Below are positions 53,184-64,000 of a stretch of 64,000 nt of DNA, piece after piece; the first letter of the stretch is position 1; every line of letters starts with the position of its first letter. The translations under genes were made by a program, and so were the position numbers. The notes below the pieces were generated by a model. That model was given only the letters and a program-made list of their open reading frames with translations. It made no database searches and was not told the DNA's origin. Source of the stretch: Paractinoplanes abujensis (lineage in GTDB: Bacteria > Actinomycetota > Actinomycetes > Mycobacteriales > Micromonosporaceae); NCBI RefSeq assembly GCF_014204895.1, contig NZ_JACHMF010000001.1, positions 5,146,001 through 5,210,000 on the forward strand, given 5' to 3'.

Positions 53184-54116
53184 ATGGGTGACGCTCGGGT
53201 GATGGTCTTCGCGCCGGCACCGCAGTTGACGGTGACCATCGAACAGCAACACAACCAGCCGGAGCTGCACGTGCACCCGGGTGGGCAGGGCATCTGGCAG
53301 GCTCGCATGATCACCTCGCTCGGCGCCGAGGTGACGCTCTGCACGGCGGTCGGCGGCGAGGTGGGCCGTGTGCTCAAGCCGCTGCTCGACTTCAAGGGCG
53401 TGCAGCTGCGCACGGTCCCGCGGGAAAGCGGCAGCGGCTGGTACGTGCACGACCGCCGCAACGGCAAGCGCCAGGAGCTCGCGGAGCAGCCCGGGGCCCC
53501 GTTCACCCGGCACGAGCTGGACGAGCTCTACAACCTCGCGCTGGCCGAGGGGCTACGGGCGGGCAACGCGATCCTCAGCGGCCCGGCGCACCCGTCGGTG
53601 ATCCGGCCGGACGTCTACGGGCGCCTCGCGCACGACTTGAAGGCCCACGGCTGCCGGGTGATCGCCGACCTGTCCGGCGACCACCTCAAGGCGGTGCTCG
53701 AGGCCGGCCTGCACGTCGTCAAGGTCAGCCACGAGGAGCTGCTCCGGGACGGCATGATCAAGGACGCGTCCGAGAAGTCGCTCACCGAGGCGCTGGTCAA
53801 GCTGCACTCCGACGGTGCCGAGGCGGCCCTGCTGTCGCGGGCCGACGCGGGCGCGCTGGCCCTGTTCAACGAGCAGATCTACAAGGTCGCCATCCCGAAG
53901 CTCTCGATCGCCGACCATCGCGGCGCCGGTGACTCGATGACCGCCGGGGTCGCCGCCGTGCTGGCCAAGGGCGGCGAGATGACCCAGGCCGTCCGCACCG
54001 GGGCGGCCGCCGGAGCCCTCAACGTCACCCGGCACGGGCTCGGCACCGGGCACCTGGACGCCGTGCAGGTGCTCACCGAACGAGTCAAGATCACCCCTCT
54101 CAAGAAGGCGACATGA
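53184..54116 (+). CDS. PfkB-family sugar kinase (phosphofructokinase-like)
   Basis: A 310-residue ribokinase-fold enzyme. VHPGGQGIWQARM near the start and HRGAGDSMTAGVA (catalytic Asp250) near the end are PfkB motifs. It most resembles fructose-1-phosphate or tagatose-6-phosphate kinases, but substrate is unproven. It overlaps surE by ATGA (54113-54116). The two may act together on nucleotide-sugar or sugar-phosphate turnover. Confidence 0.85.
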   Translation: MGDARVMVFAPAPQLTVTIEQQHNQPELHVHPGGQGIWQARMITSLGAEVTLCTAVGGEVGRVLKPLLDFKGVQLRTVPRESGSGWYVHDRRNGKRQELAEQPGAPFTRHELDELYNLALAEGLRAGNAILSGPAHPSVIRPDVYGRLAHDLKAHGCRVIADLSGDHLKAVLEAGLHVVKVSHEELLRDGMIKDASEKSLTEALVKLHSDGAEAALLSRADAGALALFNEQIYKVAIPKLSIADHRGAGDSMTAGVAAVLAKGGEMTQAVRTGAAAGALNVTRHGLGTGHLDAVQVLTERVKITPLKKAT

Positions 54117-54952
54117 CGAGAATCCTGGTCACCAACGACGACGGCATCGACGCGCCCGGTCTGCGCTGGCTGGCGCGGGCCGCGGCCCGGGAGGGGCACG
54201 ACGTCACGGTCGCCGCGCCGGTCACCGAGGCCAGCGGCAGCAGCGCGGCCATGACGGCGGTGGAGGAGCACGGCAAGATCATTCTGCACAAGCGTGAGCT
54301 CCCCCACGCCAAGCACATTCCCGCGTACGCGGTAGCCGCTTCACCCGCCTACATCGTGCTGCTGGCCCTGCGGGAGGCGTTCGGCGACGTCCCCGACATG
54401 ATCTTGTCGGGGATCAACCGGGGCGCCAACGCGGGCGCCGCGGTCGTGCACTCGGGCACGGTCGGGGCCACCCTGACCGGCTCGTACGCGGGTCTGCACG
54501 GGCTCGCGGTCTCGCTCGACGTGCTCTCGCCGCGGGCCTCCTCGGCGCGCAGCGGGGGCGCCGCCCTGGCCGCCCTCGACCACGAGGAGGACGAGAAGCG
54601 GCACTGGGACAGCGCGGCCGAGCTCGCCGTGCGCCTGCTGCCCACGCTGGCGCACACACCGCCCGGCACGATCTTCAACCTGAACGTGCCCGACCTGCAC
54701 CTGGACGGGATCCGGGGGTTGCGGCGGGCCTCGCTGGCCCAGTTCGGCCAGGTGCAAGTGAGCATCGCCGAGGCCGGGGAGGGCTTCGTGCGCACAGCCG
54801 TGCAGGCCGCGGACGACACCCTGCAGCCCGACACCGACCTGGCCGCCCTGGCCGAGCACTTCGCCGTGGTCACGCCGATCCGGCCGCCACACGAGATGAC
54901 CGAGGTCAAGATCAACCTCGAGGCGATCCCCCTGCACGCCTCGGCGCTGTAG
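54113..54952 (+). CDS. surE: 5'/3'-nucleotidase SurE
   Basis: A 279-residue metal-dependent phosphatase. ILVTNDDGIDAPGL gives the Asp9-Asp10 metal ligands, and ASGSSAAMTA and LSGINRGANAG complete the site. SurE removes phosphate from nucleoside monophosphates and is linked to stationary-phase survival. The C-terminus is longer than in E. coli. It is the second gene of the PfkB operon and ends at a strong terminator. Confidence 0.93.
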   Translation: MTRILVTNDDGIDAPGLRWLARAAAREGHDVTVAAPVTEASGSSAAMTAVEEHGKIILHKRELPHAKHIPAYAVAASPAYIVLLALREAFGDVPDMILSGINRGANAGAAVVHSGTVGATLTGSYAGLHGLAVSLDVLSPRASSARSGGAALAALDHEEDEKRHWDSAAELAVRLLPTLAHTPPGTIFNLNVPDLHLDGIRGLRRASLAQFGQVQVSIAEAGEGFVRTAVQAADDTLQPDTDLAALAEHFAVVTPIRPPHEMTEVKINLEAIPLHASAL

Positions 54953-54963
54953 GCGGGCACGAA

Positions 54964-54999
54964 AAAGGCCGGCCCTCCCCTGCGGGAAGGCCGGCCTTT
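54964..54999. terminator. Terminator between surE and the STAS gene
   Basis: AAAGGCCGGCC / GGCCGGCCTTT stem with inner TCCC/GGGA, A-run on one side and TTT on the other, between two convergent genes. It can act in both directions. Confidence 0.85.
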
Positions 55000-55007
55000 C
55001 GACGAAC

Positions 55008-55370
55008 TCAGGCCCCGGACACCGCCGGCTGCGCCGCGTCGGCCTGACCGAACGGCTGCGGATTGCCGAACAGACCGAGCAGCCCCGTCACCCACAACTG
55101 GCGGTGCGCGAAGCGGCTGGGCCGCGTGACGACCAGTTTGACCTCACTGACCTGCGCGAGCTGGAAAGCGGCGACGAGCGCGCTGATGCCCACGGAGTCG
55201 ATGAAGGTCACATTTTGAAGATTGAGCTCGATGCGAGCGAGATGCCCGGCGGCCAACTGCCCCGCCACCGCCTCGCGGATCTCGTACGCGTTTTCGACGT
55301 CGATCTCGCCGCTGGGCGAGACCTCCACCACGTCGTCGGCAAGCGTCGACGTCATTATCGACAGCGTCAC
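55008..55370 (-). CDS. STAS-domain anti-sigma-factor antagonist
   Basis: A 120-residue STAS protein like SpoIIAA/RsbV. Ser59 in FIDSVGISALVAA is the phosphorylated residue. Such proteins bind anti-sigma kinases and free a sigma factor when unphosphorylated. The C-terminal 20 residues are a disordered tail. GGAGGG lies eight bases before GTG 55370. No partner kinase is adjacent. Confidence 0.87.
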   Translation of the reverse strand: MTLSIMTSTLADDVVEVSPSGEIDVENAYEIREAVAGQLAAGHLARIELNLQNVTFIDSVGISALVAAFQLAQVSEVKLVVTRPSRFAHRQLWVTGLLGLFGNPQPFGQADAAQPAVSGA

Positions 55371-55688
55371 GCCAAATCCCTCCACCCACCCGGGACCTCC
55401 GGGCGTCGTTCCTCCTGCTCAGGGCCACTTCCGAGCGATCCCAGCTCGCCCGGCGCACCCCTCGCATCGGGGGTTGTCGAGACTACCCCCACAAGGTTCG
55501 GTGAAACTGACCGAAAGGTTAGGACCCGAACCTGTCAGGCACCTGAGTGCCTGATGTGAACCGGGTCAAGGATACCGGCTGGTGGCAAGTCGTTTCCGAA
55601 ACGTGATGGCGTCCACACCGGACACGTTTGTTGAACGGCGCGCATGGGCACGGTTAAGCACGAACGGCGAGCGCGGGAGGTACCAACG
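55371..55688. other. Divergent regulatory gap with two dyads
   Basis: About 320 bases between the STAS gene and a divergent membrane protein. It holds TTCGGT-N7-ACCGAA (55497-55515) and the perfect dyad TCAGGCAC-CTGA-GTGCCTGA (55535-55554). No gene is convincing. These may be operators for regulators of one or both genes. Confidence 0.5.
55535..55554. promoter_or_regulatory. 20-bp perfect dyad
   Basis: TCAGGCAC-CTGA-GTGCCTGA, eight-base arms and a four-base centre, about 135 bases upstream of the small membrane protein gene and 165 bases upstream of the STAS gene. It could be an operator or a hairpin. Confidence 0.5.
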
Positions 55689-56117
55689 ATGTTCTCCAGC
55701 AAGAGCAAGACGGAACGAACGGCCGCGCAGGCCTGGGAGTATCTGTCGGCGGCCATGACGGCCGTGGGTGACACGGCCAAGGACACCGGCGACAAAGCGA
55801 GCACCCTGGCCGGCAAGGCCAGTGATCAGGGTCACAAGCTGGCCGGTAAAAGCTACAGGAAGAGCCAGAAGCTGGCGACCAAGGCGAGCGGCAAGGCCGA
55901 TGTCGCCTGGCACCGCGCCAACGCGGCGGCGGCGGCCCTGGCCGGGCGCAAGCCGGCCCGCCCGTGGGGCCTGATCATCGGCGTGGGCCTGCTCGGCGCC
56001 GCGGTCGGTTACGCGGTCGCGCAGTCGGCCCGGGCCGCCCTCGAGCGTCAGGCCGAGCAGGAGGAGCTCGAGCTGGCCGAGACGGCGGTCGTGGTCACCC
56101 CGACGTACGACAACTGA
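55689..56117 (+). CDS. Small membrane protein with Lys/Ala-rich helices
   Basis: A 142-residue protein, ATG 55689 behind GGGAGG. Residues about 15-90 are a long amphipathic helix region rich in Lys, Ala, Thr and Gly (DKASTLAGKASDQGHKLAGK), and residues about 94-112 are a membrane helix (GLIIGVGLLGAAVGYAVAQ). The tail is acidic. It recalls YtxH- or CsbD-like stress proteins, but I cannot confirm. Confidence 0.7.
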   Translation: MFSSKSKTERTAAQAWEYLSAAMTAVGDTAKDTGDKASTLAGKASDQGHKLAGKSYRKSQKLATKASGKADVAWHRANAAAAALAGRKPARPWGLIIGVGLLGAAVGYAVAQSARAALERQAEQEELELAETAVVVTPTYDN

Positions 56118-56132
56118 GCCCTGCGACATCTC

Positions 56133-56162
56133 CCCCGGGCGGCGCCCCATGGCCGCCCGGGG
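56133..56162 (+). terminator. Hairpin after the small membrane protein gene
   Basis: CCCCGGGCGG / CCGCCCGGGG, ten-base perfect stem with a ten-base loop, 16 bases after the stop. No T-run, so it may be an intrinsic terminator of the GC-rich kind. Confidence 0.6.
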
Positions 56163-56282
56163 CCTTGGCGTACCCGGGACGCCCGCAAGGGCCCCCTCTG
56201 ACCCCCGCCGGAGCCGGGGGCCGGTTACAGTTTCGCCGTCTCTCCGCTGTGGCTCAGCCACCCGATTAGATAAGGTCCGTTG

Positions 56283-57713
56283 GTGCTCACTGCCGGCCAC
56301 CTCCTCGGCAACCGTTACCGGTTGGACGAGCGCATCGCCACAGGCGGGATGGGTGACGTCTGGCGCGGCACCGATGTCGTGCTGGGCCGGGTCATCGCCG
56401 TCAAGGTCCTGCGCTCGAACATGATGGCCGACCCCGAGTTCGCCGCCCGGTTCTACGGCGAGGCCCGGATGATGGCGGCCTTCCGCCACCCCGGCGTGGT
56501 CGAGGTCTACGACTACGCCAGTGCCAACGAGTCGGGTGGCGAGGAGGGCATGGCCTATCTGGTCATGGCCTACGTCGAGGGCGAGCCGCTGTCGACCCGG
56601 GTCAAGCAGGGCCCGATGCCGGTGACCGAGGTCATGTCGATCGTGGCCCAGGCGGCCGACGCGCTGCACGCCGCCCACGAGAACGGCACGGTGCACCGCG
56701 ACGTCAAGCCGGGCAACCTGATCGTCAAGCCCAACGGCACGGTCGTGCTGGTCGACTTCGGCGTGGCCCGCTCGGCCGCGGTCACCAGCGTCACGGCGGT
56801 CAACGCGATCGTCGGCACGGCGCTCTACATGGCGCCCGAGCAGGTCGCCAAGGGCAACGTCTCGGCCGCCACCGACATCTACGCGCTCGGCGCCGTGGCC
56901 TATCACTGCATCGCCGGCGAACCGCCCTTCGACGGCGACAACGCGCTCCAGGTCGCCCTGCGCCACCTGGAGGACGAGCCCGAGCCGCTGCCCGAGCACG
57001 TGCCGCTCGAGGTCCGCGAGCTGATCCAGAAGGCGATGGCCAAGCAGCCCGCCGACCGGTTCCAGACCGCGGCCGAGTTCGCCGAGGCCGCCTTCGCCGC
57101 GGCCGGCCCGCTCGACTGGAAGCGCCTGACCGGCACGTCGATGGTGGCCCCGCTCAGCCCGGCCGCACCCACCCGGGCCGTGCCGATGCCGCGCGACCTG
57201 CCGCCGGCGACACCCCCGCCCCCGCCGACCGGCCCGTCGTCGACCTCGACCGGCCTGACCCCCCGGCGGCCCCCACGCAGCCAGACGGCGCTGCTCGTGG
57301 GCGTGATCGCTCTGCTCGTGCTGGCCGGCGGCCTCGCCTTCGCGATCGCGCTGCGGCCCGACAACGACGCGAAGAGCCCGGTCGACAACACGGTGCCCGG
57401 CGGCGTGCCCTCCCAGCAGGTCGACGAGGCCACGCCCGACCCCACCGACCAGGTGAGCGAGGTGCCGAGCACCCGCTCGACGACGACGCGGGGCAACTCG
57501 CCGCAGCGCACCCAGACCCCGAGCGCGACGCCGAGCACGACGCCGCCGAGCCTGCCGACCACCACCCGGCCGACGTCGCGACCGCCGACCACGCCGCCGA
57601 CGACCCCGCCGACCACGCCGCCGACGACGCCACCGACCACGCCGCCCACCACCACGCCCCCGCCGCCCGACACGGGTGGCGACGGTGGAGCGGCCGCGGG
57701 GGCCAACCCGTAG
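56283..57713 (+). CDS. Membrane Ser/Thr protein kinase
   Basis: A 476-residue kinase. The catalytic domain (about 8-265) has the glycine loop ATGGMGDVW, Lys41, HRDVKPGN (catalytic Asp140) and DFG at 158-160. A Pro-rich linker leads to one membrane helix (about 335-357), then an extracellular tail of Pro/Thr repeats (TTPP, about 445-465). It lacks PASTA domains, so a different signal is sensed. GTG 56283 is chosen (AAGG seven bases upstream); a TTG at 56280 is equivalent. Confidence 0.9.
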   Translation: MLTAGHLLGNRYRLDERIATGGMGDVWRGTDVVLGRVIAVKVLRSNMMADPEFAARFYGEARMMAAFRHPGVVEVYDYASANESGGEEGMAYLVMAYVEGEPLSTRVKQGPMPVTEVMSIVAQAADALHAAHENGTVHRDVKPGNLIVKPNGTVVLVDFGVARSAAVTSVTAVNAIVGTALYMAPEQVAKGNVSAATDIYALGAVAYHCIAGEPPFDGDNALQVALRHLEDEPEPLPEHVPLEVRELIQKAMAKQPADRFQTAAEFAEAAFAAAGPLDWKRLTGTSMVAPLSPAAPTRAVPMPRDLPPATPPPPPTGPSSTSTGLTPRRPPRSQTALLVGVIALLVLAGGLAFAIALRPDNDAKSPVDNTVPGGVPSQQVDEATPDPTDQVSEVPSTRSTTTRGNSPQRTQTPSATPSTTPPSLPTTTRPTSRPPTTPPTTPPTTPPTTPPTTPPTTTPPPPDTGGDGGAAAGANP

Positions 57714-57725
57714 GGCGCTTGACTC

Positions 57726-57740
57726 TGACACTGTGTCAGG
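57726..57740. promoter_or_regulatory. MerR-type operator
   Basis: CTGACAC-T-GTGTCAG, a perfect 15-bp palindrome 15 bases before the MerR start, directly after TTGACT (57720-57725). The MerR family twists promoters with a long spacer and binds a dyad there; this site fits autoregulation. Confidence 0.65.
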
Positions 57741-57755
57741 GCGGAAGGTGATCCC

Positions 57756-58610
57756 ATGTTCAGCATCGGAGAGTTCGCCGGTCTGGGACGCGTGTCCGTT
57801 CGCATGCTGCGCCACTACGACGCGATCGGGCTGCTCCGGCCCGCCCACGTCGACCCGCACAGCGGTTATCGCTTTTACTCCGCCGCCCAGTTGCGCCTGC
57901 TCAACAGGGTGACCGCCCTCAAGGACCTCGGGTTCAGCCTGCACCAGGTGCAGACGCTGATCGACGAGAAGATCGACACGGCCGAGCTGTGGGGCATGCT
58001 GCGCCTGCGCAGGACCGAGCTCGCGGCGCGGATGGCGCAGGACACGGCACGGCTGGCCCAGGTCGACGCCCGCCTCCGCATGATCGAGAGTGAGGGGCAC
58101 ATGGATACCGGAGACGTCGTCCTCAAGCAGATCCCGGCCACCCGCTGCGCGATGCTCTGGGGCACCGCGACCAGCTACGACCACCCGACGTCGATCACCG
58201 AGAACTTGACGCCGCTGTATCCGCGGCTGATGGAGCTCATGGAGAAGCACAACGTGGCCATGTGCGCGGCGCCGATCGCGTACTACCTCCCCGCGCCGAC
58301 CGAGCCGGGCGACGAGACGATCACGGTGCACGCCGCGTTCCCGATCGGCGCGGCCGAGGTCCCGCCCGGCGCCGGCTTCGAGGTCGTGACGCTGCCCGAG
58401 GTCGCCGAGGCGGCGACGGCACTGCACCACGGCTCGATGTCCGAGGCGTTCCGCACCGGGCAGAAGATCGCCAATTGGATCGACGACAACGGGTACCGCG
58501 CGGTCGAGCCGGGCTTCGCCGTCGAGGTCTACCTGGAGTGCCCGCCGGGCGAGTTCGACAAGTGGGTCACCGAGCTGCAGGTGCCGATCCGAACCGCACC
58601 CGAAAACTAA
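57756..58610 (+). CDS. MerR-family regulator with GyrI-like effector domain
   Basis: A 284-residue activator. The helix-turn-helix (MFSIGEFAGLGRVSVRMLRHYD) and dimerisation helix (about 70-115) lead to a GyrI/BmrR-like domain (about 125-284) that binds multidrug-type ligands. The perfect dyad and TTGACT just upstream support autoregulation. The neighbouring genes do not reveal an obvious efflux target. Confidence 0.88.
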   Translation: MFSIGEFAGLGRVSVRMLRHYDAIGLLRPAHVDPHSGYRFYSAAQLRLLNRVTALKDLGFSLHQVQTLIDEKIDTAELWGMLRLRRTELAARMAQDTARLAQVDARLRMIESEGHMDTGDVVLKQIPATRCAMLWGTATSYDHPTSITENLTPLYPRLMELMEKHNVAMCAAPIAYYLPAPTEPGDETITVHAAFPIGAAEVPPGAGFEVVTLPEVAEAATALHHGSMSEAFRTGQKIANWIDDNGYRAVEPGFAVEVYLECPPGEFDKWVTELQVPIRTAPEN

Positions 58611-58690
58611 CCTCAGGTTCCCCGGGGCGCGGCCGATGGGCCCGGGCGGCACGGAATCGCAACCGAGCCGCTACCGAAAGGCCCCGACGC

Positions 58691-59026
58691 ATGCCGACCC
58701 CGATCCCGTACGCGGAGTATCCGACCACGCCGCCCTGGGGTGTGCCGGAGACCCCGGCCGCCCCGGCCGAACCTTCGGCCCCGCCCGCGACGCCTCCCCG
58801 GCTGTTCGTGCGCTTCCCGGAGGAGATGGCGCGGGCCGCCCGGCCGCAGGCCCCGGCGTGGCTGCCCGTGGTCTTCTGGACACTGCTGCTCGGCGTGCCC
58901 GGGGCCGTGTCGGCGATCCGGCGCAGCACCGAGGCCCGGCACGGCGGCCATGAGCGTTACCCGTACTGGCTCGCCTTCGGCACGGTCCTCGCGGTGGCGG
59001 CCGCGACGGTGATGTTCCTTGAATAG
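58691..59026 (+). CDS. Small Pro-rich membrane protein
   Basis: A 111-residue protein. Residues 1-45 are Pro/Ala/Thr-rich; hydrophobic helices are about 57-72 and 92-110. A weak AAAGG ribosome site precedes ATG 58691. Not recognised. Its end is two bases from argS, tail to tail. Confidence 0.6.
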   Translation: MPTPIPYAEYPTTPPWGVPETPAAPAEPSAPPATPPRLFVRFPEEMARAARPQAPAWLPVVFWTLLLGVPGAVSAIRRSTEARHGGHERYPYWLAFGTVLAVAAATVMFLE

Positions 59027-59027
59027 C

Positions 59028-60629
59028 TCACATCTCGTCGGGCACCGGGATGCCGAGCAGGTCGAGGCCCAGGCGCAGGGTCTCGCCGGTGCGGGCGGTC
59101 AGGGCCAGCCGGCTGGGTGAGCCGAGGATCGGGCGGCACGTCTCGTAGAACGTGGAGAAGGCCACCGCCACGTCGTGCAGGTGGACGGCCAGCCGGTGCG
59201 GTTCGCGGTGCTCGATCGCGGCCGCCGCGGCCGGCTCGAAGCCCAGCAGGGTCAGCGCCAGCCGCCGCTCCGCCGGATGACCCAGGACGACCGGGCCGGG
59301 CGCCGCGCCCGCCTTGGCCAGCAGCGAGCGGATCCGGACCAGCGCGTACTGCAGGTAGGGACCGGTGTCGCCGGTCACGGCCAGCATCCGGTCCCAGTCG
59401 AAGACGTAGTCGCTGCGCCGGTCGTTGGCCAGGTCGGCGTACTTGATCGCGCCGATGCCCACGGCCGGGGCGGTGGCCCGCTCGTCGGCCTCGTCGAGCA
59501 GGCCGGCCAGTTTGATCGTGTCGCCGGACCGGGTCTTGAGCATCCGGCCGTCCGGGCCCAGCACCGAGCCGAAGTTGACGTGCTCGGCGGTGACCCCCGC
59601 GGGCAGCCAGCCGGCAGCCCGGCCGACCGCGAAGACCATGGCGAAGTGGTTGGCCTGCGGGGTGCCGACCACGTAGAGCAGGCGGGTCGCGGCCAGCTCC
59701 CGGGTGCGGTGCCGCAGGGCGGCGAGGTCCGTGGCCGCGTACCCGAAACCGCCGTCGCTCTTGCGGACGATCAGCGGGAGCGGTTGCCCGTCGCGGCCGG
59801 TGAACCCGGCAGGGAAGGCGCAGAGCGCCCCCTCGCTCTCGACCAGCAGCCCCTTGGCCGTCAGCTCGTCGACCACCGAGCCCAGCTGGTCCTGGTAGGA
59901 GCTCTCGCCGCTGAAGTCGGCCCGGGTCAGCGTGATGCCGAGCCGCTCGTAGTCGGCCACGAACGACCGCTCGGACTGCTCGACCAGCCGGTGCCACATC
60001 GCCCGGGTCGCCGGGTCGCCGTTCTGCAACGCCACCACCCGCAGCCGGGCCCGCGTACGGAAATCGGGATCGTTGTCGAACGTGACCCGCGCCTGCTGGT
60101 AGAACGCGGTGAGGTCGCTCAGCGAGTAGTCGCCGTCGTGGTCGGACATGTGCTCGATCAGCATGCCGAACTGCGTGCCCCAGTCGCCCAGGTGGTTGAC
60201 CCGCACCACGTCGTGCCCGCCCCAGCTGAGCAGCCGGGCCAGCGCGTCCCCGATGATCGTCGACCGCAGGTGCCCGACGTGCAACTCCTTGGCCACGTTG
60301 GGGCCCGAGTAGTCGAGGACGATCCGTTCCTTCGCGCCCGGTGGCGGGTCGAGCGGGTACGCGGCCGCGAGCACCGCGTCGTCGACGGTCAGGTTGAGGA
60401 AGCCGGGACCGGAGAGCTCGGCCGTGGCCAGCCCGGTCAGGTCGGCCCGGGCCGCGACGTCGGCCGCGATCTCGCGCGGGGCCCGGCCCAGCCGGCGGGC
60501 CAGGCCGAGGGCGGCTCCGGACTGGAAGTCGGCGTGCTGCGAGGCCCGCACGAGGGGGTCGACCGGCTCGCCGGCCACCGCTTCGAACGCGACCGCCAGC
60601 CGAGCGGCGAGAACAGCTTCGAGATTCAT
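59028..60629 (-). CDS. argS: Arginyl-tRNA synthetase
   Basis: A 533-residue class I synthetase that charges tRNA-Arg. The HIGH motif is HVGH at 117-120 (NVAKELHVGHLRST). The N-terminal Add-1-like region and the C-terminal anticodon-binding helical domain are present, with the typical LKTRSGD loop instead of KMSKS. Upstream lies an Arg-rich leader ORF and a pair of alternative RNA hairpins, suggesting attenuation by Arg supply. ATG 60629 is chosen; other in-frame starts (e.g. 60641) are nearby. A second argS elsewhere cannot be excluded. Confidence 0.94.
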   Translation of the reverse strand: MNLEAVLAARLAVAFEAVAGEPVDPLVRASQHADFQSGAALGLARRLGRAPREIAADVAARADLTGLATAELSGPGFLNLTVDDAVLAAAYPLDPPPGAKERIVLDYSGPNVAKELHVGHLRSTIIGDALARLLSWGGHDVVRVNHLGDWGTQFGMLIEHMSDHDGDYSLSDLTAFYQQARVTFDNDPDFRTRARLRVVALQNGDPATRAMWHRLVEQSERSFVADYERLGITLTRADFSGESSYQDQLGSVVDELTAKGLLVESEGALCAFPAGFTGRDGQPLPLIVRKSDGGFGYAATDLAALRHRTRELAATRLLYVVGTPQANHFAMVFAVGRAAGWLPAGVTAEHVNFGSVLGPDGRMLKTRSGDTIKLAGLLDEADERATAPAVGIGAIKYADLANDRRSDYVFDWDRMLAVTGDTGPYLQYALVRIRSLLAKAGAAPGPVVLGHPAERRLALTLLGFEPAAAAAIEHREPHRLAVHLHDVAVAFSTFYETCRPILGSPSRLALTARTGETLRLGLDLLGIPVPDEM

Positions 60630-60655
60630 TGACACACCCATCGACGTACGCGAAA

Positions 60656-60706
60656 GCGGGTCGACCGGGTCGTGCAAGCAGAGCACCGGCGGGATCGACC
60701 CGCCGG
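60656..60706 (-). promoter_or_regulatory. Candidate argS attenuator with alternative hairpins
   Basis: In the RNA sense, arm GGCGGGTCGA can pair with the adjacent CCCGCCGG (60686-60706, eight-base stem CCGGCGGG/CCCGCCGG, five-base loop) or, instead, with distal TCGACCCGC (60656-60664, nine bases with 60695-60703). The two foldings exclude each other. They lie between the leader stop codon and argS, the classical arrangement for ribosome-dependent attenuation. Confidence 0.6.
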
Positions 60707-60720
60707 GAGGAGAACAGGAC

Positions 60721-60765
60721 TCAGCGGCGGTCGTCGGGGCGGCGTCGCTCGCTGAAGGTCGTCAT
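60721..60765 (-). CDS. argS leader peptide, Arg-rich
   Basis: A 14-codon ORF, MTTFSERRRPDDRR, with five Arg codons (CGA, CGC x4). Its stop lies 14 bases before the first hairpin and 92 bases before argS. A TACGGT hexamer (60772-60777 on the minus strand) six bases before the ATG would allow a leaderless transcript. Ribosome stalling at the Arg codons when charged tRNA-Arg is scarce would alter the downstream folding. It is too short for most ORF finders; function is inferred. Confidence 0.6.
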   Translation of the reverse strand: MTTFSERRRPDDRR

Positions 60766-60814
60766 GGGCACACCGTAGCTCATCCCGGCCCGGTGGCCGT
60801 AGCAAGATAGGGCC

Positions 60815-61240
60815 GTGAGTTGGGTGGCCGGCGAGACCGGAGTGATGCGACTGCCGTCGGGGCGCCTGGTGCGAGGGCGAGGGCTGCGGGACCCGATGCC
60901 GTCGGGGCACCCGCCCGCTTTCGGGGCCTACCTGCTGGGCTCGGCGCCGCCCGAGTTCGGGTGGGTCAGCCGCTGGATCCGATGGCCCGACTTCCGGCTT
61001 CCGGCCGACCCCTCGTACGCGGGAAAGGTCTTGGCCGAGGTGTGGGAGCGCGCGGCCGGCGAGCGGGTGGAGATCGCGTGCGGCGGCGGCCGCGGACGCA
61101 CCGGCACCGCGCTGGCCTGCGTGGCGGTCATCGACGGGGTGCCCGCGGAGGAGGCGGTGGCCTACGTGCGCGAGCACTACCATCCGCGGGCCGTCGAGAC
61201 GCCCTGGCAGCGAAAATTCGTCCGTTCCTTCACCCGTTAG
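60815..61240 (+). CDS. Dual-specificity/tyrosine phosphatase-like protein
   Basis: A 141-residue protein. ACGGGRGRTGTALA holds Cys89-x5-Arg95, the CX5R signature of tyrosine phosphatases, with the Gly-rich P-loop. A general acid Asp is not obvious; PDFRLP near 58-63 is a candidate. It is divergent from argS, across the attenuator region. Reaction partner unknown. Confidence 0.8.
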   Translation: MSWVAGETGVMRLPSGRLVRGRGLRDPMPSGHPPAFGAYLLGSAPPEFGWVSRWIRWPDFRLPADPSYAGKVLAEVWERAAGERVEIACGGGRGRTGTALACVAVIDGVPAEEAVAYVREHYHPRAVETPWQRKFVRSFTR

Positions 61241-61308
61241 GAAAATACCGTGATGATCAGAAGCGGCCATTAGGCTGGAGCGGCATGTCCGGCGCCTTGG
61301 GGGGACTC

Positions 61309-61755
61309 ATGATCGTCGTGGAGCGCAGCCTGGCCGTGACCGCCGCCCCGCCGCTGGCGCTCGGCTACCTGGCCGATTTCGGCAACACCGCGGTGTGGGA
61401 TCCGGTCGTGCGCCAGTCGATCCGCAACGGCGCCGGGCCCATCGTGCCGGGGGTCAGCTGGCGCCAGGTGTGCCGGCTGCTCGGCATCACCACCGAACTG
61501 ACCTACACGCTGGTCACCTCGGAACCCGGGCGGCTGCTGTTCCACGGGCGCAACGAAGGGGCCACCTGCGTCGACACTGTGGTCGTGCGGGCGGCCCCGT
61601 CGGGTTGCGAGGTCACTTACCGGGTCGAGCTCGAGGTGCACGGGCTGGCCAAGCTGGCCTCCCGGCTGATCAAGATGGAGTTCGAGAAGGTCGGGAACAG
61701 GGGCGCGGCCGCCCTCACCCAGGCGCTGAACAGCCTGGCCCCCGCGGCTCCCTAG
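61309..61755 (+). CDS. SRPBCC (polyketide-cyclase-like) protein
   Basis: A 148-residue hydrophobic-pocket protein starting MIVVERSLAVTAAPP, the usual SRPBCC beginning. ATG 61309 follows GGGGGA; an in-frame ATG at 61285 with GGAG four bases upstream is equally possible. The role may be in lipid or polyketide handling. It overlaps the methyltransferase gene stop by CTAG (61752-61755). Confidence 0.8.
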   Translation: MIVVERSLAVTAAPPLALGYLADFGNTAVWDPVVRQSIRNGAGPIVPGVSWRQVCRLLGITTELTYTLVTSEPGRLLFHGRNEGATCVDTVVVRAAPSGCEVTYRVELEVHGLAKLASRLIKMEFEKVGNRGAAALTQALNSLAPAAP

Positions 61756-62561
61756 GCGCGGGTCGCGACGACCTGCAGGTAGGCCGACGGGATCCGGGCC
61801 GTGCCGTCGGTGGCCGTGTTGTAACGCCCGACCAGGGCGACCAGGTCGTCGTAGAGCGGCTTGCCGCCGTCCGGGCCGAGCGCCTCGAACGCCTTGAGCG
61901 TCGGGCCGTAGTACTCGCGGAAGTAGTCGGCGAAATGCTCGGCCGTCCGGAAGCGGAAGACGAACTCGCGGCGGGTCGTGCGCAGGTCACGCACCCGGTC
62001 GCCGAACAGTTCGCGGACGCGGGCCTCGCTGCCCCACTCGACCGGCCCGCGGATGCCGGGCGGTGGCGGCACCCGGCGGCCCACCGTGCGGAACATCTCG
62101 CCGATGAAACCGTCGGGCGTCCAGTTGGCCATGGCGATCGTGCCCCCGGCCCGGCACACCCGGGTCAGCTCGGCCGCGGTGCGCTCCTGGTCGGGGGCGA
62201 ACATCGCGCCGACCACCGAGAGCACGGCGTCGAAACGGCCGTCGTCGTACGGCAGGTGCTCGGCGTCGGCGATCTCCGTGGTCAACGGCAGGCGTTCCGC
62301 GTCGGCCCGCTCCCGGGCCCGGGCCAGCAGCCCCGGCACGTAGTCGGAAGCGGTCACCCGGCACCCGCACCGGGCGGCGGCCAGGGCGGCGTTGCCGGTG
62401 CCGGCCGCCACGTCCAGCACGTCCGCACCCGGCGCGAGGTCGGCCGCCTGCACCGTCTCCTCGGCCATCGGATGGATCAGGGAGGCCACCGCGCCGTAGT
62501 CGCCGCTGGCCCAGGTCTTCTGCTGCTTGGCTTTGAGTCCTTCGAGATTCAGCTCCGTCAT
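61752..62561 (-). CDS. Class I SAM methyltransferase
   Basis: A 269-residue protein. VLDVAAGTGNAALAAA (about 50-65) is the SAM loop and VLSVVGAMFAPDQE the motif-III region. It has the typical UbiE/COQ5-like pattern (CRVTASDYVPGLLARAR). The small-molecule substrate is unknown. ATG 62561 is preferred because 12 upstream in-frame codons look less protein-like. Confidence 0.8.
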   Translation of the reverse strand: MTELNLEGLKAKQQKTWASGDYGAVASLIHPMAEETVQAADLAPGADVLDVAAGTGNAALAAARCGCRVTASDYVPGLLARARERADAERLPLTTEIADAEHLPYDDGRFDAVLSVVGAMFAPDQERTAAELTRVCRAGGTIAMANWTPDGFIGEMFRTVGRRVPPPPGIRGPVEWGSEARVRELFGDRVRDLRTTRREFVFRFRTAEHFADYFREYYGPTLKAFEALGPDGGKPLYDDLVALVGRYNTATDGTARIPSAYLQVVATRA

Positions 62562-62899
62562 GCCTACGACGCTACGAATCCGCAGCTCCGGGCACATGGG
62601 GAAGGCTCCCTATGTTGGCCCGCTCCATTACCCAGTGCGTGCGCGAACCGACGGCGCACCGGACCCGAGTACATTCGCGGGCTGAACCCGAGCGATGTCA
62701 GGACTATGCCATGAGCATCGAAGCCACTCCGCTCGTGACAGAACTTTGACATCTCTTCGTCGCGAATCCGCGCTGATTTGCAGGGAAATCGTCGGCCATT
62801 AGGTGCGGCGGCTACAGAGTTGGAACAGTCAAGAAATGTCAGAGTAATGACTCACGGTCAGTCTGCTTTCACTAGCAGCGGCCGAACGGAGTCTCCTAT
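62562..62899. other. Non-coding gap upstream of urtA
   Basis: About 340 bases with no convincing gene. GTGACA-GAACT-TTGACA at 62735-62751 has the 11-bp spaced half-sites of a GlnR-like box; TTGACA could also be a -35 element, but no good -10 is at the right distance. A ribosome site GGAG precedes the urtA start by about eight bases. Confidence 0.45.
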
Positions 62900-64000
62900 A
62901 TGTCCTCCACCAGCAAGCGGATGCGCGCGCTTGTCGCCACGGGCGCCATCGCGACGACCATGGCCCTCGTGCTCACCGGCTGCGGCGCGCGAGCCGGCGA
63001 CGACACGGCCGGCGCCGGGTCGTCCGCGGCAGCCAGCTGCGTCGACACCTCCGGCGACACCGTCAAGCTCGGCTTCCTGAACTCCCTGACCGGCGGCATG
63101 GCGATCTCGGAGAAGACCGTCTCCAATGTGCTGCACATGGCCGCCGACGAGATCAACGCCGACGGCGGCATCCTCGGCAAGAAGATCGAGTACGTCCAGG
63201 AGGACGGCGCCACCGACTGGCCCACCTTCGCGGAGAAGACCGAGAAGCTGCTCACCCAGGACTGCGTGGCCGCGATCTTCGGCGGCTGGACCTCGTCCTC
63301 CCGCAAGGCGGTGAAGCCGGTCGTCGAGAAGTTCAACGGCCTCTTCTTCTACCCGGTGCAGTACGAGGGCCTCGAGTCGTCGCCGAACATCTACTACACC
63401 GGCGCGACCACCAATCAGCAGATCATCCCGGCGATGGACTTCCTCGCCTCCAAGGGGGTGAAGACGCTGTTCCTCGCGGGCAGCGACTACGTCTTCCCCC
63501 GCACCGCGAACGCGATCATCAAGCTCTACGCGGCCAAGCTCGGCATCAAGATCGTCGGCGAGGAGTACGTGCCCCTCGACAAGGACGACTGGACCAGCCA
63601 GGTGGCGAAGATCGTGGCGGCCAAGCCGGACTTCATTTTCAACACCATCAACGGCTCGTCGAACGTCGGGTTCATCAAGGCGTACTACGACGCCGGCCTC
63701 ACCCCCGCCAAGACGCCGATCATCTCGGTGTCGATCGCCGAGGAGGAGGCACCGGCCATGGGCCACGAAGTCACCGGCAACTACGCGTCGTGGAACTACT
63801 TCCAGTCGCTCGAGACCGACACCAACCCGAAGTTCATCAAGAGCTGGAAGGCCTACCCCAACAGCAGCGGCGTCACCTCCGACCCGATGGAAGCCGCCTA
63901 CATCTCGCTCCACCTGTACAAGGCCCTCGTCGAGGCGGCCGGGTCGTTCGACGTCAACGCGGTGAACGCCGCGGCGAAGGCGAAGCCCATCACGTTCGAC
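62900..64000 (+). CDS. urtA: Urea ABC transporter substrate-binding lipoprotein UrtA (incomplete)
   Basis: The first 367 codons of a lipoprotein that binds urea or short amides for an ABC importer; the gene runs off the right edge. Lipobox LTGC gives lipidated Cys28. DTVKLGFLNSLTGGMAISEKTV and GGWTSSSRKAVKPVVEK, followed by FYPVQYEGLESSPNIYYTGA, are UrtA-family hallmarks related to AmiC. urtBCDE would be expected downstream. Nitrogen control by GlnR is plausible. Confidence 0.92.
   Translation, partial: MSSTSKRMRALVATGAIATTMALVLTGCGARAGDDTAGAGSSAAASCVDTSGDTVKLGFLNSLTGGMAISEKTVSNVLHMAADEINADGGILGKKIEYVQEDGATDWPTFAEKTEKLLTQDCVAAIFGGWTSSSRKAVKPVVEKFNGLFFYPVQYEGLESSPNIYYTGATTNQQIIPAMDFLASKGVKTLFLAGSDYVFPRTANAIIKLYAAKLGIKIVGEEYVPLDKDDWTSQVAKIVAAKPDFIFNTINGSSNVGFIKAYYDAGLTPAKTPIISVSIAEEEAPAMGHEVTGNYASWNYFQSLETDTNPKFIKSWKAYPNSSGVTSDPMEAAYISLHLYKALVEAAGSFDVNAVNAAAKAKPITFD

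Follow-up and report, generated by a model that had tools for sequence, protein, structure and literature searches.

The window analysed here is a 64,000-nucleotide (nt) stretch of DNA from Paractinoplanes abujensis (contig NZ_JACHMF010000001.1, positions 5,146,001 to 5,210,000), and the subject is a short, arginine (Arg)-rich open reading frame (ORF) that precedes argS2, a gene on the minus strand for a second arginyl-transfer RNA (tRNA) synthetase. We propose that this ORF is the leader of a ribosome-mediated, Arg-specific element that probably controls argS2 by acting on access to its start. The leader is a conserved short upstream ORF rich in codons for the amino acid that its gene serves. 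Helices that are conserved and, as predicted from related loci, mutually exclusive overlap or follow it (S0:S1, S2:S4 and S4:S5). The Arg-codon leader, the spacing of a TANNNT box from its start codon, a bias towards the codon CGA, the S0:S1 helix (hairpin A), S2:S4 and S4:S5 all emerge from comparison among loci, which is laid out below.

Conservation of the leader and its promoter box

The leader ORF, MTTFSERRRPDDRR (60721..60765, minus strand), is present as the original prediction, made from the letters of the window, had described it. It reads ATG ACG ACC TTC AGC GAG CGA CGC CGC CCC GAC GAC CGC CGC TGA, and five of its 14 codons specify Arg, namely the run CGA-CGC-CGC at 60747-60739 and a terminal CGC-CGC. 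Six nt before its ATG stands TACGGT (60772..60777, minus strand), the putative -10 box (TANNNT) of the leader transcript. The suggestion that this box would allow a leaderless start holds up across the genus, by which we mean Actinoplanes in the wide sense (Actinoplanes/Paractinoplanes, family Micromonosporaceae): the box precedes the start codon by 6 nt in 33 and by 7 nt in 31 of 64 leaders, hence in 64/64. In Actinoplanes sp. SE50/110, TAnnnT occurs at 98% of the examined start sites, on average 6.2 +/- 1.1 nt upstream, and 1179 of 4228 start sites are leaderless, given as 14.03% of all coding sequences (PMC7682106). Because a TANNNT box 6-7 nt before the start codon agrees with that spacing, the leader fits the predicted 5' end of a leaderless mRNA that starts at its start codon.

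ArgS2 was detected in 66/67 genus genomes at E <= 1e-100; genome G200 is the sole one without it at this threshold. An Arg-rich short ORF behind a TANNNT box was seen at each locus of a first set of 30. A strict rule was then applied (TANNNT, 5-8 nt, a start codon, 6-36 codons with RRR, a stop codon), together with a looser one (RR and at least 4 Arg). The strict rule is satisfied at 63/66 genus argS2 upstream regions and the looser rule at 65/66. Controls are near zero: the strict rule is found on the opposite strand in 0/66, upstream of housekeeping argS genes in 0/20, in random 375-nt segments of the same loci in 0/1451 and in shuffles in 1/1320, and the looser rule on the opposite strand in 0/66. 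Conservation of a short Arg-codon ORF upstream of argS in relatives, the comparison on which the original prediction had staked its case, is therefore borne out. L029 and L148, which fail the strict rule, have RR only, and L164 has no leader. The extra argS2-like copy L167 (G029, 55% identity) has no leader and was left out of the genus counts; L167 and L164 were left out of the 65-sequence structure set, and the further omission of L163, whose match begins inside the gene, gives the 64 sequences of several tests.

In other genera of the family (58 loci from 57 genomes, of 73 genomes with a match), the strict rule is satisfied at 20/58 loci and the looser one at 21/58, with 0/58 on the opposite strand for both. 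The peptides there are often unlike the genus leader, e.g., MTALRRRQTAAF and MHTPISRRRRQI. Several of the 20 passing loci share one genus and close similarity, so that they are not 20 independent cases. Among named relatives, where 39 of 80 named loci were read, the looser rule was satisfied at 0/35 other loci (34 outside the family and Micromonospora maritima inside it), and a leader was found at 0/6 loci in the order's other families.

A profile of the element gave one strong match (E <= 1.9e-7) in 23/24 genus genomes searched, always at argS2, while G008 and the 16 genomes searched from other families had no match below E 0.0126. As many of the searched sequences went into the profile, the argS2 matches are expected, and the informative part is that no second strong site appears. 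The RNAalifold structure of this model (R1) was poor, with 8 pairs that were not the hand-read hairpins, so the model amounted to a sequence profile. When a 30-nt leader pattern was allowed up to 3 mismatches, it had no match in the own genome, even at the window's own copy, probably because the window leader is 3 nt shorter there.

Codon choice in the Arg run

In 64/64 genus leaders the Arg run opens with CGA, a codon that makes up 11/2211 Arg codons across 47 argS2 coding regions. In other genera, CGA accounts for 48/65 run codons, and CGA-CGA-CGA forms the whole run in 11/20 leaders. A bias of this kind within and beyond the genus points to sensing at the level of codon and tRNA, and not to a peptide or DNA motif.

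Arg-rich short ORFs also stand before argS2 at loci without the hairpins described below (L174, L195, L201, L202, L205, L191, L171, L194 and L197), and several of these carry CGA-CGA-CGA or CGA-CGA. Such hairpin-free leaders may have separate origins, or may have lost the RNA part.

Conserved helices around the leader

Five strands are distinguished on the minus strand besides S0, TTCAGCGAGCG (60746..60756), which is the 5' arm of hairpin A and encloses the Arg run with S1, CGCCGCTGAG (60720..60729), the 3' arm that includes the leader stop codon; both are supported by swap tests and compensated variants, and S0 by folds as well. S2, CCGGCGGG (60699..60706), is the left arm of hairpin B, and its 3' part with the loop also pairs with S4; S3, CCCGCCGG (60686..60693), is the right arm, with an invariant core and an enriched flanking pair. 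S4, GGTCGACCCGC (60656..60666), is a distal strand and the partner of either S2 plus loop or S5, as judged from pair counts and swap tests, and S5, GTCGATGGGTGTGTCA (60630..60645), is the argS2 ribosome-binding region, linked to S4 by swap tests. The two pairings that had been predicted to share one strand are both there: hairpin B, CCGGCGGG-TCGAT-CCCGCCGG (60706-60686), is perfect over 8 base pairs (bp), and GCGGGTCGA is complementary over 9 bp to the distal TCGACCCGC (60664-60656). Hairpin A inside the leader, and the S4:S5 helix on the argS ribosome-binding region, come in addition to what the original prediction had described.

An alignment-free swap test was used, in which the pairing energy with the own species' partner segment is set against that with partners from other species. 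It gave z -8.6 for S0:S1 and -10.2 for S2:S3; among 65 sequences, S2b:S4 reached -5.1 and S4:S5 -6.5. No signal was obtained for S1:S5, leader:S5, S1:S2, S2:S5, linker:S5, linker:S4 or S1:S4 among those 65 sequences, nor for S0:S3, S0:S4, S1:S3, S1:S2 or Arg:S3, and S0:S5 got to -1.9. The same four helices came first when 66 segment pairs were scanned in up to 60 sequences, with L143, L013, L019 and L148 left out as well: S2a:S3 (-10.0), S0:S1 (-7.6), S2b:S4 (-4.6) and S4:S5 (-4.5). They were followed by Arg:S1 (-4.0) and S0:gap (-3.5), which are read as extensions of hairpin A, and by S1:S2a (-2.7). The remaining 59 lay between -2.4 and +3.5, a spread that shows how far relatedness alone pushes such scores.

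Pair counts were made on alignments (A1, 63 sequences without L148, L163, L164 and L167; A2, 36 chosen ones). For S2:S4, 94.0% of 553 cells are paired, against 29-49% (maximum 48.8%) when one strand is slid, and 4/9 pairs changed on both sides; the last pair (column 134 with 179) fails in 20/52 sequences. The hairpin B core is paired in 99.6% of cells with no both-sided changes, so that covariation says nothing for it. The pair next to this core is formed in 42/64 sequences against 29.4 expected, and two pairs farther out are not enriched (36 against 38.2 expected, and 8 against 11.1 expected). The compensatory changes anticipated for both pairings are thus present in the distal one, while in the local hairpin only the adjacent pair covaries. 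Hairpin A was not counted on A1 because clades pair in different columns, and its compensated variants include TTCAGCG:CGCTGAG, GCTTCAGCG:CGCTGAAGC and TCAACCG:CGGTTGA. Covariation, as read from these sequences, supports four helices, namely S0:S1, hairpin B (in its flank only), S2:S4 and S4:S5.

The S2:S4 pairing extends beyond the genus. For 13 loci in five other genera, S2:S4 scores -15.6 when both strands come from one locus and -14.8 when the partner comes from another of the 13; genus pairs score -16.7, and cross-genus pairs (-13.1 and -12.5) are weaker than own pairs. In L041, L042, L048, L180 and L188, GGGTCGA:TCGACCC is replaced by pairing of the type GGATCGA:TCGATC. Some other loci of the 13 have a different best S2:S4 site, so the cross-genus match is not uniform. 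Eight loci that fail the strict leader rule (L039, L040, L041, L042, L047, L048, L180 and L188) keep the S2:S3 hairpin and the S2:S4 complement, and only L042 and L047 among them satisfy the looser rule.

Proposed mechanism

We infer leader translation, stalling as the signal, the direction of control, an output at translation initiation, in which Rho may or may not take part, and most of all the way in which a stall would physically lead to S2:S4. The leaderless mRNA would begin at the leader start codon, and the ribosome would meet the Arg run, led by the rare CGA, within the loop of hairpin A. If charged tRNA-Arg is short, the ribosome would stall at the run, cover S0 and open hairpin A, which would leave S1 and the downstream RNA free for alternative folding; otherwise, it would run on to the stop codon in S1. 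Since the Arg run lies in the loop and the stop codon in the 3' arm, the geometry suggests that S1 is free only with a ribosome on the run. In the proposed OFF state, S2:S3 and S4:S5 would form and hide the argS2 ribosome-binding region; in the ON state, S2:S4 would form and leave it open. Stalling is taken to favour ON, so that a cell short of charged tRNA-Arg would make more ArgS2. Classical attenuators have the freed strand pair with its downstream neighbour; in this element, for RNA cut at S2, leader-S2 pairing is predicted at 0.78 with a stalled ribosome, 0.00 with a terminating one and 0.14 without a ribosome.

Several observations weigh against this proposal. The predicted leader-S2 pairing is gone once S3 is made (0.01), and S2:S3 dominates the full-length RNA in all three states (0.92, 0.94 and 0.92). 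At equilibrium, the mean unpaired probability of the argS2 start region is 0.23 with the ribosome on the Arg run, 0.23 with it on the stop codon and 0.22 without a ribosome (n = 64). In RNA cut at S4, S2:S4 amounts to 0.20 in the stalled state against 0.57 in the terminating and 0.44 in the ribosome-free state, which is the opposite of the model. S1:S2 pairing is equalled or bettered by 36% of random coding 24-mers and by 61% of synonymous variants on average. The swap-test z-scores ignore relatedness, and with other pairs reaching up to +3.5, a score of -4.5 is clear and not extreme. The Shine-Dalgarno (SD) sequence is weak in many genus members, including the window (GATGGG). As for the leader, the genus locus L164 belongs to genome G008 and has none, 38/58 loci of other genera fail the strict rule, and L180 has the RNA layout yet shows no Arg-rich ORF. 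By analogy with the Salmonella speF leader, kinetics, Rho or an RNase may matter in the step from stall to S2:S4.

A number of specific schemes were tried and rejected. A thermodynamic switch by ribosome footprint had no effect in equilibrium folding, and an ON state combining S1:S2a with S2b:S4 appeared in 3/64 minimum-energy folds even with S3 blocked. An S1:S2 antiterminator is not usefully above chance, with swap z of -0.9, -1.1 and -2.7; its mean energy is -16.1, compared with -15.0 for random coding 24-mers and -17.1 for synonymous variants (n = 47). Frameshifting or translational coupling, suggested by an uninterrupted frame between the Arg run and the argS2 start, fails since the phase between leader and argS2 is not conserved (26/20/18 of 64). 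Pairing of the Arg codons with the argS2 SD in the style of the LEU element gave no signal (Arg:S5 z -0.8; leader:S5 z 0.6), and neither did pairing of the Arg run with S3 (z 0.7).

Output of the element and alternative explanations

The conserved helix S4:S5 covers the argS2 ribosome-binding region, and S2:S4 is its conserved competitor. Since S4 is common to S2 and the ribosome-binding region, the arrangement is laid out like a switch that would turn translation initiation on or off, and the output, to judge from these pairings, points to that step. In the window, GATGGG at 60642-60637 occupies the place where some relatives have GAGG or GGAG, and in L029 the pairing CGGGGACCC:GGGTCCCCG reaches the start codon. 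The SD consensus of SE50/110 is nGGAGn (PMC7682106).

The alternative that survives best keeps the same Arg-sensing leader and replaces the output by premature transcription termination, either by Rho or with hairpin B as an unusual intrinsic terminator, and with S4:S5 secondary. We regard it as unlikely. In PMC1262725, the Streptomyces trpS and leuS leaders are predicted as classical attenuators, and for mycobacterial cys leaders, where no terminator hairpin was found, Rho is proposed as a rather weak prediction. The stretch from the leader stop to S2 is pyrimidine-rich (mean 0.73; >= 0.6, i.e., at least 0.6, in 60/64), compared with 0.51 in upstream sequence, and could be a Rho or S1 site before hairpin B. 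On the other hand, there is no terminator-like site within 60560-60860, and T content is low after both strands in question: the 8 nt that follow S3 contain 1.94 T on average, with no T-run >3 among 64 sequences, and the 8 nt that follow S4 contain 2.56 T on average, with one run of 4 among 62. Moreover, S4:S5 covaries, which a pure terminator model does not need. Attenuation of the classical trp, his or leu type, as the original prediction had it, is therefore not borne out, given that no U-tract follows either hairpin, the antiterminator helix is near random, and S4:S5 lies on the ribosome-binding region. In the window itself, the pyrimidine-rich stretch spans 60707-60720 (minus strand), and much of this stretch would lie under a ribosome standing on the stop codon.

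Genes for aminoacyl-tRNA synthetases are known to be autoregulated or controlled by T-boxes. ArgS2 protein or uncharged tRNA-Arg might accordingly bind the leader RNA directly, in the manner of a thrS-like operator or a T-box, with the ORF incidental; a hairpin does precede a sequestered start region. We consider this very improbable, because it leaves the in-frame conserved CGA runs and the leaderless start unexplained. An Rfam search of 54000-64000 up to E 1 returned three weak matches, none within the element and none a T-box.

Macrolides arrest ribosomes at the motifs +X+ and RLR, and the last residues of some leaders are RLR, PLRLR or LRLS, so an Arg-rich nascent peptide could be imagined to stall ribosomes with a macrolide-like antibiotic. 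However, CGA is favoured codon by codon, even in unrelated peptides, and arrest at the peptide level needs no such bias; the controlled gene, besides, encodes an Arg-tRNA synthetase. A drug-sensing leader thus appears still less probable than direct binding. The clade II leaders (L024, L027, L030, L033, L162 and L168) end in LRLS or RLR and not in RR, and several of them have a rebuilt hairpin A (TCAACCG:CGGTTGA); the two together suggest that the peptide end in this clade is shaped by RNA pairing.

Least credible of all is a chance ORF among conserved palindromes of DNA or RNA, which would serve as transcription-factor sites or as a stabilising structured 5' untranslated region. Strong palindromes do lie in this short intergenic region between divergent ORFs, but the strict leader rule is satisfied in 0/66 on the opposite strand and in 1/1320 shuffles, the box stands at 6 or 7 nt in 64/64 leaders, and the CGA bias persists in genera whose loci are without these hairpins.

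The argS2 locus

The gene argS2 (59028..60629, minus strand) encodes a 533-amino-acid second arginyl-tRNA synthetase, identified by a match to NCBIfam argS and by structure search. Its start is the ATG at 60629, 91 nt 3' of the leader stop codon. ArgS2 scores 380.8 bits against NCBIfam argS, above the cut-off of 261.65, and its nearest solved structures are 6ao8 (464.7 bits), 4oby and 5yym, all named arginine-tRNA ligase, i.e., bacterial ArgRS; HVGH and KTRSG are identical in the alignment with 6ao8. Named relatives are Paractinoplanes at 73-81% and Actinoplanes palleronii at 69%; among those retained at 42-57% are Sorangium, other actinobacteria and many gammaproteobacteria.

The same 9.33-Mb genome holds another ArgS at C1:7821943-7823493, with 29% identity to the window's ArgS2. 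With 384.4 bits, that copy also exceeds the NCBIfam argS cut-off, and downstream of it come lysA, homoserine dehydrogenase (hom) and thrC, an order that we take to be the housekeeping argS arrangement. The window's argS is hence the second (spare) copy and not the housekeeping one. The original prediction was right in calling it an arginyl-tRNA synthetase gene, and its treatment as argS as such needs correction in view of the 29%-identity copy elsewhere. The housekeeping argS of the own genome (L206:3333-4994) has no leader ORF by the strict rule; it looks leaderless, with TAGCAT six bases before its GTG start.

On the other side of the leader lies a divergent plus-strand ORF (60815-61240), so that leader and argS occupy one short intergenic region read towards argS. 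Its 141-amino-acid product has no NCBIfam match; it contains CGGGRGRTG, which resembles a protein-tyrosine-phosphatase loop.

Significance and comparison with known systems

Arginine would, if the proposal is true, join the amino acids that Actinobacteria sense by attenuating synthetase genes, and the leaders (64/64) would offer a very clear natural example in which one rare codon has been chosen as sensor. ArgS2 would be marked as a conditional enzyme beside the housekeeping ArgS, and the role of the spare synthetase, whether in arginine shortage or against a natural ArgRS inhibitor, would become directly testable in Actinoplanes strains. The leaders of other genera would form a series where the sensor has become separated from the RNA output. 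A wider reading, which we put forward tentatively and with rather less assurance than the control of argS2 itself, is that the element is a sensor of tRNA-Arg charging with CGA as the hungry codon, composed of a leaderless leader and a five-strand switch on translation initiation without an intrinsic terminator. The sensor would have been kept or re-invented before argS2 within the family, with unrelated peptides that carry CGA-CGA-CGA runs and in different RNA surroundings, the conserved part being the codon test and the RNA output being replaceable. No leader peptide of argS or arginyl-tRNA synthetase was found in the literature by title and beginning of abstract, a search whose coverage mostly excludes subscription literature. 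The sensor as such belongs to a known kind; what is new within the literature searched is to find a leaderless, CGA-led Arg sensor joined with a spare synthetase and with a terminator-free switch at the ribosome-binding site.

A comparable case in gene type is the auxiliary trpRS1 of Streptomyces coelicolor, which Vecchione and Sello reportedly described in 2010 as subject to ribosome-mediated transcriptional attenuation and tied to indolmycin resistance. There, too, a second, auxiliary synthetase gene is said to stand under a leader, whereas that system is Trp-specific, transcriptional and linked to indolmycin and the argS2 leader is Arg-specific. We know of no inhibitor for the ArgS2 case.

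For Actinobacteria, attenuators have been predicted at leuS and trpS, as has the LEU element of leuA (Seliverstov et al., 2005, PMC1262725), and that survey reports no conserved RNA structures upstream of arginine operons. The Streptomyces leuS and trpS attenuators likewise have a synthetase gene behind a short ORF rich in cognate codons with alternative hairpins, while the argS2 element has Arg, no U-tract and a helix over the ribosome-binding region. The LEU element resembles it in its leader peptide with regulatory codons, its alternative structures and its pairing onto a downstream SD box; there, however, Leu codons pair with the SD, whereas the argS2 leader employs a separate strand, S4, and not the Arg run (z -0.8).

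In Salmonella speF, arginine is sensed by consecutive Arg codons of the short upstream ORF orf34, with Rho and a sequestered ribosome-binding site acting together (PMC6386406), a likeness to the argS2 element in the sensed amino acid and in the sequestered site. The differences are that speF is an ornithine decarboxylase gene, that orf34 has its own SD, that RNase G and Rho are shown to act, and that sequence and phylum are unrelated; frequent Arg codons were as good as rare ones there (PMC6386406). Finally, the mycobacterial polycysteine short ORFs (Canestrari et al., 2020) are reported to be leaderless and to carry a run of regulatory codons, with Cys and cysteine operons in place of Arg, argS2 and the conserved RNA helices of this element. 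The argS2 leader shares with them a -10 box placed for a predicted start at the start codon of the short ORF (64/64).
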